Shown in pieces: positions 43,941-47,662 of a stretch of DNA of 64,000 nucleotides (position 1 is the stretch's first letter; the number at the start of each line of letters is the position of its first letter). The stretch spans positions 1 to 64,000 of the forward strand of contig NZ_WHOL01000040.1 in NCBI RefSeq assembly GCF_009745975.1. The letters run 5' to 3'. Below the pieces are notes generated by a model. The model was not told the origin of the DNA. It made no database searches and saw nothing but the letters and a program-made list of their open reading frames with translations. The DNA comes from Actinokineospora pegani (lineage in GTDB: Bacteria > Actinomycetota > Actinomycetes > Mycobacteriales > Pseudonocardiaceae). Both the position numbers and the translations under genes were made by a program.

Positions 43941-44981
43941 TCAGAGCGGGTCCGCGAAGGTGAATCGTGTGGTCATCGCTTGCTCGCAGGCCCTGACCGC
44001 CCGGCGCAGGCGGTGTTCGCGGGTGCCGGTCAGCAGGACCCACGGCACACCGCGCTCCCGCAGCCCGCGCACGAACCGGGCGGTCATCCACGGGCGCAGG
44101 TGCTCGCCGTCGCGGGTGCCGTCCTGTTCGAACGGGACGCCCACGTGGTCGGTCAGCAGGTACAGCGCGGGCCGCCGCGACCCCACGGCCGCGTCGACCT
44201 CCGCGTGCCCCGCGCCCAGGTAGCGCTCGCACCACACCGTCGCCGCCCACGGGTCGTTGTCGCAGACCAGCACCGGCGCCAGCGGGGCCGCCGCGTCCTC
44301 GTCCGCGCCCTGGCGCACCGCGACGTCGACGAAGTCGCCCACCGTCCACACCGTCGAGCCCGCCCTGGTCTTCACCTCGGTGTGCTCGCGGCCGTACTCC
44401 GGCACGAAGTCGCCGCCGTGGTGCGCGGCCAGCGCCCTGGCCAGCGTCGTCGTCCCGCTGGACTCCGCGCCGAGCACGACCACCCGCGTGCACAGCCCGG
44501 CCCGCGTCGACCGGGCCAGGCGCGACCAGTTGCCCCGGACGTCGGCGCGCACCGCCGTGCCCGACACCGGGTGCGCGACCCGGCCCGGGTCCACCGGCAC
44601 GTGCCGCGCGCCGAGGCGCCGGGCGAGCTCGGCCCCGTAGCCCTCGCTGCTGAACACCGCGTCGACCGGCTCGTGGCCGTCCAGGGCCGCCCGCCGGGCC
44701 AGCACCGAACGGACGACGCCCATGTGCAGGTCCCACACGGCCGGGTCGTGGTAGTCGATCGGGTGGTCGTCGAGGTCGCCGACGACCCGGACGCCGGGGT
44801 CGGCCGCGTGCTCCTCGGCCAGCCAGGACACCCGGTCGCGGATGGACAGCGACTCGACCGTCGCGCCGAGCATCGCGACGGTGGTGCGCCCGGACTCGGC
44901 GGCGGCCGATCGGATCAGGTGGTGGTGCCCGGCGTGCGGGGGGTAGAACTTGCCGAGCACCAGGGCGTGGCGGAACCTCAT
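43941..44981 (-). CDS. nadR: NadR-type NMN adenylyltransferase/ribosylnicotinamide kinase
   Basis: A 346-residue bifunctional enzyme of NAD salvage. The N-terminal nucleotidyltransferase has LGKFYPPHAGHHHLIRSA (HxGH motif) and DAVFSSEGYGAELARRL. The C-terminal kinase has Walker A VVLGAESSGTTTLARAL followed by FVPEYGREHTEVK. No helix-turn-helix is present, so unlike enterobacterial NadR it is not a repressor. ATG 44981 overlaps the pnuC stop as ATGA; the transporter and enzyme form one nicotinamide-riboside uptake unit. Confidence 0.94.
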   Translation of the reverse strand: MRFRHALVLGKFYPPHAGHHHLIRSAAAESGRTTVAMLGATVESLSIRDRVSWLAEEHAADPGVRVVGDLDDHPIDYHDPAVWDLHMGVVRSVLARRAALDGHEPVDAVFSSEGYGAELARRLGARHVPVDPGRVAHPVSGTAVRADVRGNWSRLARSTRAGLCTRVVVLGAESSGTTTLARALAAHHGGDFVPEYGREHTEVKTRAGSTVWTVGDFVDVAVRQGADEDAAAPLAPVLVCDNDPWAATVWCERYLGAGHAEVDAAVGSRRPALYLLTDHVGVPFEQDGTRDGEHLRPWMTARFVRGLRERGVPWVLLTGTREHRLRRAVRACEQAMTTRFTFADPL

Positions 44982-45610
44982 GCCGCGGTCCGCGCGCGCA
45001 GGTCGGCCCGCCACGAGCGCAGCCCGAGCACGCACAGGGCGAGGAAGCCGACGTAGAGGATCGACGTCAGCCACAGGCCCTTGTAGGCGTAGAGCGGGAT
45101 GTAGACCAGGTCGGCGGTGATCCACAGCCACCAGCTCTCCAGCTTCTTGCGGGCCTGCCCCCAGGTCGCCAGCAGCGACAGCACGGTGGTGAACCCGTCG
45201 GGGAACGGGACCGTGGAGTCGGTCGCCGTGCTGAGCAGGAAGGTGAGCGCCGCGGTGGCGGCCACGCCCACGACGAGGACCACCCGCCACTGCGCCACGG
45301 TGACCCGCGAGACCGTGAGGTGGGTGCGCTCGTCGCCCCCGCGCAGCCACGACCACCAGCCGTAGACGGCGAGGGCGACGTAGACGACCTGCAACCACGC
45401 GTCCGCGTAGAGGCCCGCGGTGATGAACAGGGCGAAGAACGCGAGGTTGTTGACAATCCCGATCGGCCAGTTCCACACGTTCTGCCGCGCCACCAGCCAC
45501 ACGCACAGCGCGCCGGTGACGAACCCGACCACCTCCATCCACGAGGTCTCGGCGCCGAACGCGGTGAACGCGGTCGCGCGAAGTGGTCCCAGCACGCCGT
45601 CGAGTGACAC
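44978..45610 (-). CDS. pnuC: nicotinamide riboside transporter PnuC
   Basis: A 210-residue membrane transporter of the SWEET-like PnuC family with about seven helices. The substrate signature is QNVWNWPIGIVNNLAFFALF; ESWWLWITADLVYIPLYAYK and GLWLTSILYVGFLALCVLGL follow as in the family. GTG 45610 has GGGAGGAG upstream. Its overlap with nadR supports nicotinamide riboside as substrate, trapped by the NadR kinase. Confidence 0.94.
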   Translation of the reverse strand: MSLDGVLGPLRATAFTAFGAETSWMEVVGFVTGALCVWLVARQNVWNWPIGIVNNLAFFALFITAGLYADAWLQVVYVALAVYGWWSWLRGGDERTHLTVSRVTVAQWRVVLVVGVAATAALTFLLSTATDSTVPFPDGFTTVLSLLATWGQARKKLESWWLWITADLVYIPLYAYKGLWLTSILYVGFLALCVLGLRSWRADLRARTAA

Positions 45611-45715
45611 CGGCTGACTCCTCCCTGTTCGACCGCCGCCCTGGTCAGCCGACCCGCAGCCTACGGAGCCGCTGCCCGGTCGGGCGACAAGTGGGATCGA
45701 CCCGTTGCGCGATGA

Positions 45716-45731
45716 TCGAACATGTGTTCGA
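45716..45731. promoter_or_regulatory. perfect LexA/SOS box over the radical SAM start codon
   Basis: TCGAAC-ATGT-GTTCGA matches the actinobacterial SOS consensus TCGAAC-N4-GTTCGA exactly. The ATG in its centre (45722-45724) is the start codon, so bound LexA would block both a leaderless transcript and its promoter. Confidence 0.85.
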
Positions 45732-47662
45732 CTAACGCCGTGCGATGGGACGGACAGCGGTTGGACGGGACCCGGGCCGACGAGGCCGGGCAGGGCTCGC
45801 TGCCGGGGCTGCCCGGCCTGGTGCGCAGCGTGCGGACCCCGGAGTTCGCCGGGGTGGTGTTCCACGAGGTCTTGGCCAAGTCAGTGCTCAACCGCGTGCC
45901 CGGGCGCGGCGAGATGCCGTTCGAGTGGACGGTCAACCCCTACCGCGGGTGTTCCCACGCGTGCACCTACTGCCTGCACGGCGACACGCCGATCCTGATG
46001 GCCGACGGCACGACCAAGCCGCTGGCCGAGATCGCCGTCGGCGACCGGATCTACGGCACCGAGCGGCGCGGCAGCTACCGCCACTACGTGCCCACCGAGG
46101 TGCTCGACCACTGGAGCACCACCAAGCCCGCCTACCGCGTCACCCTCGCCGACGGCACCCAGCTCATCGCCAGCGGCGACCACCGCTTCCTCACCGAGCG
46201 CGGCTGGAAGCACGTCACCGGCGAGGTCTCCGGGCCCGGCCGCCGCCCGCACCTGACCGTCGGCAACAAGCTCATGGGCACCGGCCAGTTCGCCGCCGCC
46301 CCCAAGGACACCGCCGACTACCGGCGCGGCTACCTCGCGGGCGTCGCCAGGGGCGACGGCGGCGCGCCGCGCGCCGAGCAGGCAGGCGCCCGGGTCGCGG
46401 AGTACCTGTCCGGCGACTCCGGGCTCACGCTGCCCGTCGACTGGCCGCGCACCCCGACCGACGAGTGGCGCAAGGGCCTGCTCGCCGGGGTGTTCGACGC
46501 CGACGGCACATTCGCCCACCGCATCCTGCGACTGCCCAACCTGGGGCCGCGCGCGCTGGCGGCCGTCGAGGAGGCGTTGTCGCGCTTCGGTTTCCAGCAC
46601 GCCCTCGAGCAGCGCAGGCTGCCGATGGCCCGCCGCTGCGTGCGCGTCGACGGCGGCCTGCCCGAGCACCTCCGCTTCTTCCACCTCACCGACCCCGCCG
46701 TCACCACCAAGCGCACCATCGACGGCGCCGCCATCAAGTCCCCCGCCCGCCTCGACGTCGTCGCGGTCGAGCCGCTGGGCCTGGAACTGCCGCTCTACGA
46801 CATCACCACGGGCACCTCGGATTTCATCGCCAACGGCGTGGTCAGCCACAACTGCTTCGCCCGCCACTCGCACACCTACCTCGACCTCGACGCGGGCGAC
46901 GACTTCGACAACCAGGTCGTGGTCAAGCTCAACGCGCCCCAGGTCCTCAAGCGACAGTTGACCGCCCCCTCGTGGCACGGCTCGCCGGTGGCCATGGGCA
47001 CCAACACCGACCCGTACCAGCGCGCCGAGGGCCGCTACGGGCTGATGCCCGGCATCATCCGCGCCCTCGCCGAGTCCGGAACGCCCTTCCAGATCCTCAC
47101 CAAGGGGACCATGCTCTCCCGCGACCTCCCGCTGCTCAAGGCCGTCTCCGCGGACGTGCCGGTCGGCCTCGGCGTCTCACTGGCCCTGCTGGACCGCGAA
47201 CTCCAGTCCTCTGTGGAACCAGGCACGCCGTCCCCGTCGGCCCGCCTGGAACTCATCCGCCGGATCACCGGCGCGGGCCTGCCCTGCGGTGTGTTCGCCG
47301 CCCCGATCCTGCCCGGCCTCACCGACGCGGTGGAACAGTTGGACGCGCTGCTGGCCGCCATCGCGGCGGCGGGCGCGACCGGCGTGACGGTGCAGCCGTT
47401 GCACATCCGGCCGGGTATGCGCGAGTGGTTCGCGGCCTGGCTCGCCCGCGAGCACCCGGTGCTCGTCCCGCTGTACCGGCGCGTCTACGGGCGGGGGCTG
47501 CGGGCCGCGCCCGGGTACCGGGCCGCGTTGGCCGCCCGGGTCGCGCCGTTGGCGCGTCGACACGGGTTGGCGGGTGGGGGGTACCGGTTCCCGGAGGGGA
47601 GCGTGGTCGAGAAGCGCGTTCCGGAGCAGACGACGGGCCCGGACCAGTTGAGCCTGCTCTAG
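45722..47662 (+). CDS. intein-containing Rv2578c-family radical SAM protein
   Basis: The 646-residue precursor has an N-extein (1-83), an intein (84-377) and a C-extein. After splicing, the radical SAM motif reads NPYRGCSHACTYCFARHSHT, a CxxxCxxC [4Fe-4S] site; before splicing the third cysteine position is the intein's own Cys84. The C-extein continues with GSPVAMGTNTDPYQRAEGRY and GAGLPCGVFAAPILPGLTD, a TIM-barrel of the SplB-like type. Its mycobacterial relative is Rv2578c. A perfect SOS box overlaps the start codon, so damage induction is expected. The reaction catalysed is not known. Confidence 0.93.
   Translation: MCSTNAVRWDGQRLDGTRADEAGQGSLPGLPGLVRSVRTPEFAGVVFHEVLAKSVLNRVPGRGEMPFEWTVNPYRGCSHACTYCLHGDTPILMADGTTKPLAEIAVGDRIYGTERRGSYRHYVPTEVLDHWSTTKPAYRVTLADGTQLIASGDHRFLTERGWKHVTGEVSGPGRRPHLTVGNKLMGTGQFAAAPKDTADYRRGYLAGVARGDGGAPRAEQAGARVAEYLSGDSGLTLPVDWPRTPTDEWRKGLLAGVFDADGTFAHRILRLPNLGPRALAAVEEALSRFGFQHALEQRRLPMARRCVRVDGGLPEHLRFFHLTDPAVTTKRTIDGAAIKSPARLDVVAVEPLGLELPLYDITTGTSDFIANGVVSHNCFARHSHTYLDLDAGDDFDNQVVVKLNAPQVLKRQLTAPSWHGSPVAMGTNTDPYQRAEGRYGLMPGIIRALAESGTPFQILTKGTMLSRDLPLLKAVSADVPVGLGVSLALLDRELQSSVEPGTPSPSARLELIRRITGAGLPCGVFAAPILPGLTDAVEQLDALLAAIAAAGATGVTVQPLHIRPGMREWFAAWLAREHPVLVPLYRRVYGRGLRAAPGYRAALAARVAPLARRHGLAGGGYRFPEGSVVEKRVPEQTTGPDQLSLL
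45971..46852 (+). other. intein with LAGLIDADG-type endonuclease remnant
   Basis: A 294-residue protein intron. Block A begins CLHGDTPILMADG, block B contains IASGDHRFLTERGW, and the C-terminal blocks read YDITTGTSDFIANGVVSHN followed by Cys as the +1 extein residue. The penultimate His and terminal Asn are present, so splicing should work. Two dodecapeptide-like motifs, LAGVARGDGG and LLAGVFDADGT, keep their acidic residues, so the homing nuclease may be active or only recently decayed. Confidence 0.93.

Follow-up and report, generated by a model that had tools for sequence, protein, structure and literature searches.

An intein-interrupted radical SAM gene in Actinokineospora

We analyzed a 64,000-nucleotide stretch (hereafter, the window) of contig 40 of Actinokineospora pegani, a soil actinobacterium with a genome of 6.44 Mb, in which an open reading frame (ORF) on the plus strand (45722-47662; 646 amino acids when read from ATG 45722) encodes a radical S-adenosylmethionine (SAM) protein of the Rv2578c family that is interrupted by an intein and preceded by a LexA-type box. 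The nearest named relatives of the gene are from Actinokineospora species (72-81% identity over the best segment). The ORF matched NCBIfam NF038136 ("intein-containing Rv2578c family radical SAM protein") over its full length (857.3 bits, cut-off 700; profile 1-573 of 574) and NF038135 with 493.8 bits (cut-off 430), so NCBI already has a name for this enzyme family combined with an intein. The window copy does not differ in kind from NF038136, sharing an intein site that is identical in 96 extracted inteins, although its endonuclease is shortened. No paper about the Rv2578c-family intein was found by title or abstract in the literature searched, which did not cover subscription papers. From the analyses below, we consider it highly probable that this is a LexA-repressed gene of the Rv2578c family, its product nearest in fold to spore photoproduct lyase, in which an inherited intein of mobile origin occupies the codon of the third iron-sulfur (Fe-S) cysteine as a tolerated passenger.

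The intein comprises residues 84-377 of the ORF. A first-pass annotation, made from the sequence without database searches, had placed it at the third cysteine of a CxxxCxxC motif and had noted that its nucleophile and the +1 residue are both cysteines; both statements were borne out, as Cys1 is the third cysteine of CSHACTYC, the intein ends in SHN, and the next residue is a cysteine. The residues of a class 1 intein are all in place (C1, block B S68-G-D-H71, H293, N294, and C+1). Across 96 intein rows, including the window copy, C1, T6, H71, D277, H293, and N294 were invariant; C1, the Asn, and Cys+1 were themselves part of the intein search patterns, and no intein-sized gap failed these patterns. 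By size, 19 of the inteins are mini forms (143-166 amino acids) and 77 are larger (210-382 amino acids). Over the 91 pairs formed by 14 genes from the genus, the nonsynonymous-to-synonymous ratio (pN/pS) was 0.27 and 0.34 in the splicing segments and 0.28 and 0.34 in the exteins vs. 0.45 in the endonuclease remnant, which is indicative that the splicing part is maintained while the endonuclease remnant is held more loosely. The best PDB sequence matches were chains of replicative DNA helicases, with weak similarity (best E 5.8e-4). The mycobacterial DnaB and SufB inteins are also actinobacterial, and paper titles report stress-sensitive splicing for them, but they occupy other host proteins and sites.

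A conserved LexA-type box

The perfect TCGAAC-N4-GTTCGA box described in the first-pass annotation is present before the gene and is the sole perfect one in the window, where the pattern with at most two mismatches occurs at six sites (1.76 expected). The 6.44 Mb genome holds seven perfect boxes and no match to the pattern read backwards; one of the other perfect boxes lies upstream of lexA and another upstream of a gene with weak similarity to DNA polymerase IV. The remaining four in this genome (L002, L004, L005, and L007) lie near a cytochrome P450-like gene, a putative AlkB-like gene, an unassigned region, and a YbaK-like gene; the AlkB-like label was read from the sequence of a gene that has no NCBIfam match.

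To place the box in the family, 194 loci were examined, of which six duplicates were dropped and 16 that did not fit the motif were left out of the counts. Among these 16, an intein is present at the same site in L066 (first junction only), L124, L127, L130, L149, and L150; L151 and L152 duplicate the intein-bearing L218 and L213; and the other eight have match spans of intein-free size. The loci are not a random sample, as an intein-bearing query was used to retrieve the named set, and the lists of 30 loci hold the top-scoring matches. The box counts further exclude 15 unique loci in which no [MVL]RW start could be recognised, leaving 157. In the 60 bases before the start, 95 of these carry the box without mismatch and 22 with one mismatch (117/157), while a box with at most one mismatch appeared in 0/3,140 mononucleotide shuffles and 0/1,570 gene-body windows.

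By intein state, this box precedes 59/68 genes with a large intein, 14/16 with a mini intein, and 44/73 with none. The raw counts are higher with the intein (75/84 intein-bearing vs. 44/73 intein-free), and 19 of the 29 intein-free genes lacking the box belong to a single Streptomyces-like group (f5). After correction for the tree, no association between box and intein was found in 14 independent pairs (median p 0.5), a comparison of low power in which fewer than six pairs usually differ in the box. A box belonging to the intein is thus unsupported, since 44/73 intein-free genes carry it. A TCGAAC-N4-GTTCGA-like box near the promoter and conserved in orthologues is what is expected of the actinobacterial LexA regulon, and together with the promoter layout described below it makes the radical SAM gene a well-supported predicted LexA/SOS target. 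The SOS control proposed in the first-pass annotation therefore stands, tied to the enzyme family and not to the intein.

Promoter layout and start codon

We compared the promoter region in the 113 loci that carry a box with at most one mismatch at -28 to -23 (Table 1). The box begins at -24 or -25 relative to the start codon in 108/113 loci, a T is found at box+17 in 109/113, and a Shine-Dalgarno-like run was found in none of the 113. In the window, 17 bases separate the -35-like and -10-like hexamers, and six bases then lead to GTG 45740. With the spacing of a sigma-70-type promoter, transcription would begin on GTG 45740. The predicted mRNA is therefore leaderless, with the box situated between the promoter elements and overlapping them, and ATG 45722 would lie upstream of the transcript. 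We take the conserved GTG 45740 as most likely the start codon and expect it, from this layout, to be the transcription start as well.

The first-pass annotation had placed the start codon inside the box; on such a reading, the bound repressor would cover the start region. An ATG (45722) does lie in frame there, yet the family match in G000 begins at 45740 and the profile starts at the [V/M]RW codon. The in-box ATG of the window arises from the ATGT that fills the N4 spacer, and the spacer letters vary among relatives: an open in-frame ATG within the box occurs in only 21/119 loci, and in the clade of the window the in-frame ATGT spacer occurs in 8/16 rows (hand count). The frame of the box varies as well, since a box at -25 is out of frame with the start codon and, in L008 and L011, a stop codon interrupts the stretch that leads from the box to the start. 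With no Shine-Dalgarno-like run and a conserved -10-like hexamer downstream of ATG 45722, we reject an in-box start on the present evidence and regard it as extremely improbable even with the box as a LexA site. Divergent to the gene, on the minus strand (43941-45610), lie a nicotinamide mononucleotide (NMN) transporter (PF04973) and an AAA_28 protein that may be NadR-like.

Table 1. Features of the radical SAM locus in window coordinates.
Feature	Position	Strand	Remarks
-35-like hexamer TTGCGC	45705..45710	+	TTG 11 bases before the box in 98/113 loci; TTGAC in 66
LexA-type SOS box TCGAACATGTGTTCGA	45716..45731	+	Perfect match
-10-like hexamer TCGACT	45728..45733	+	Overlaps the 3' end of the box; TCGAAT or TCGACT in 104/113 loci
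Most likely start codon GTG (VRW)	45740..45742	+	Family profile begins here (ORF residue 7 from ATG 45722)
N-extein	45740..45970	+	Ends in ...RGCSHACTY, with the first two cluster cysteines
Class 1 intein, 294 aa, Cys1 to SHN	45971..46852	+	TIGR01445 and TIGR01443 over cut-offs; Hint parts, shortened LAGLIDADG insert
C-extein, starts CFAR (third cluster cysteine)	46853..47659	+	Remaining radical SAM domain; PF04055, NF038135
Stop codon of the radical SAM gene	47660-47662	+	

Enzyme fold and a possible link to DNA repair

The nearest solved fold is that of spore photoproduct lyase (TM-score ~0.5), which fits control by DNA damage, and SplB has a similar GC...C.YCF/Y cluster motif. In several species, radical SAM genes of the SplB type are described as SOS-regulated (PMC8565304). 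In Streptomyces venezuelae, the radical SAM gene vnz_31145 is reported with LexA enrichment in chromatin immunoprecipitation sequencing and with an increase of 19.97-fold under mitomycin C (PMC9380542). It is a possible Rv2578c orthologue; its printed box was not seen, by eye, in the 95 bases before the start of the 19 f5 loci.

These f5 loci (among L072-L095) have a leader with a Shine-Dalgarno-like run, and in 18 of them a palindrome lies about 46-59 bases before the start. It reads GGGAAC-N4-GTTCTA in 15/19, where it is conserved with its outer part altered, and TCGAAC-N4-GTTTCA in three, while L094 carries ACGAAC-N4-GTTCTA at -82. The f5 palindrome is possibly a weakened or altered LexA site.

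Spore photoproduct lyase has a conserved hydrogen-donor cysteine outside the cluster motif, and C140 mutants of the enzyme appear in PDB titles. Several observations weigh against a LexA-controlled repair enzyme. Among the alignments listed, 11-19% of residues are identical to spore photoproduct lyase, with other radical SAM families close behind. A fourth invariant cysteine is absent: across 37 rows, invariance is confined to the three cluster cysteines (a constancy partly by construction, the Cys pattern being in the search motif), and the next best column is Cys in 27/37. For want of this residue we rejected membership in the spore photoproduct lyases, while a probable resemblance in fold stands. 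No box with at most one mismatch precedes the start in 40 of the 157 loci, 19 of these being the f5 group. The family member of S. ambofaciens is described as a phage integration site, and the same 2026 paper calls its repair role speculative (PMC12924846).

Intein distribution and probable decay of the homing endonuclease

In an extein tree of 172 rows, built by a quick method, the presence of the intein needs 24 changes, 16 of which are forced by supported (starred) branches. The distribution is patchy; in the clade of the window, all 16 rows carry the intein (two of these rows carry another genus code). The window intein is 51 residues shorter than the 345-amino-acid forms, the loss lying between the two LAGLIDADG-like motifs, and its LAGLIDADG_3 match (20.7 bits) is below the cut-off of 22.5, which the 345-amino-acid form L011 exceeds with 32.5. 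An active LAGLIDADG endonuclease has two complete domains, which the window copy lacks; its homing endonuclease is shortened and, judged from these features, probably dead.

An intein that is still an active homing element spreading in the genus would account for the pS of the 14 genus genes, which is lower in the intein segments (0.32, 0.41, and 0.32) than in the exteins (0.44 and 0.51), and the Asp is kept in both LAGLIDADG-like motifs of the window copy. The low intein pS (window 45740-47659 and 13 genus genes) could nevertheless be due to codon bias or to later intein exchange. Given the residues lost between the motifs, the domain match under the Pfam cut-off, and an endonuclease remnant that has the highest pN/pS of the segments, we hold continued homing to be very unlikely.

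Beyond the family proper, an intein occupies the same site in a diverged sister group (L213, L216-L218, L220, and L223). Two DUF5131 genes (L206 and L238) carry a distantly related intein, with 31.3% and 36% identity to that of L011, at the last cysteine of a GC...GCxxC motif. L206 (1327-3171 of a Streptomyces plasmid) matches Pfam DUF5131 with 320.6 bits, and L238 was identified by its sequence and the DUF5131 match of its genome, G485. DUF5131 exceeds the cut-off in 31 of 246 genomes, not all of which were inspected, and the intein was confirmed in G485; a long DUF5131 match in L244 was on inspection not an intein. A plasmid scan for the intein gave three matching records. L206 adjoins a gene for a "three-Cys-motif partner protein TcmP" and is absent from the gene table of the plasmid record.

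A phage origin of the intein was rejected, as 119 of 50,697 phage records match, all with less than 60% identity. Scanning viral contigs with the 345-amino-acid form L011 confirmed no relative. The best phage match (26.3%) is annotated "radical SAM protein-like", but this gene (L205, 292-3561, virus Rctr197k) appears from its sequence to encode a helicase-like protein carrying an intein, and the annotation may derive from similarity of the intein.

The Fe-S site and possible redox control of splicing

The first-pass annotation had argued that the cluster can form only after splicing. This is likely for the functional enzyme; the precursor, however, keeps CxxxCxxC, with Cys1 of the intein standing in as the third cysteine, so that metal or a cluster might bind before splicing.

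The two-step control suggested by the first-pass annotation can be drawn as a switch in which DNA damage starts synthesis and splicing is held until the cell is reducing again, either by a disulfide between Cys-3 and Cys1 or through binding of metal or a cluster to the three cysteines of the precursor. MoaA is a radical SAM host, and the MoaA intein of Pyrococcus abyssi has a Cys-3/Cys1 pair with the same spacing as CTY before Cys1 here. The disulfide of that intein reportedly governs activity (PMC3922620) and, in an oxidizing environment, prevents the first step of splicing (PMC10663303). The MoaA intein is archaeal, however, its host enzyme is another one, and the redox effect is reported for it and not for the window intein. 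Mycobacterial DnaB inteins are also reported as sensitive to oxidation and zinc, and the intein is kept in the 16 rows of the clade of the window despite a shortened endonuclease in the copies viewed.

On the other side, Cys-3 and Cys-7 are cluster ligands kept in intein-free genes too. They come with the site, so that any intein placed there has a disulfide trap by default, which gives no evidence of selected regulation; none was found in the sequences that the trap is used or selected. Because exact deletion is rare, the intein could also persist without such a role; in other parts of the tree it is often gained or lost, and the tree-corrected pairs, at low power, show no association of box and intein. 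By analogy, redox control of splicing is possible, but we consider the complete two-step switch unlikely.

The same holds for a broader proposal, which we find doubtful to a similar degree: across radical-SAM-type proteins, the third-Cys codon of CxxxCxxC-type motifs would be a recurrent intein site (Rv2578c, its sister group, and, at the last Cys of a longer motif, DUF5131), and each intein there, its nucleophile lying beside cluster ligands, would provide an inbuilt redox or metal gate, set atop SOS transcription in the present gene. If this were true, maturation of the enzyme would wait until an intact cluster can be provided by the cell.

Proposed model and implications

In the model that we favor, LexA bound to the box would block the overlapping promoter and DNA damage would relieve this block. 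The leaderless mRNA would yield a precursor that loses its intein by self-splicing, with Cys1, Asn294, and Cys+1 as the reacting residues. CxxxCxxC would thereby be restored, and the spliced enzyme would probably act on a DNA lesion. The intein itself is best seen as a tolerated passenger.

The SOS box and promoter layout of the Rv2578c family are described here from comparison among relatives, and the corrected start codon with its predicted leaderless promoter is relevant to any expression work on these genes. Close relatives with a large intein, a mini intein, or none offer a naturally replicated system for redox or metal sensing at Fe-S cysteines. In essence, the conserved box connects the response to DNA damage with an uncharacterized family of radical SAM proteins in actinobacteria.
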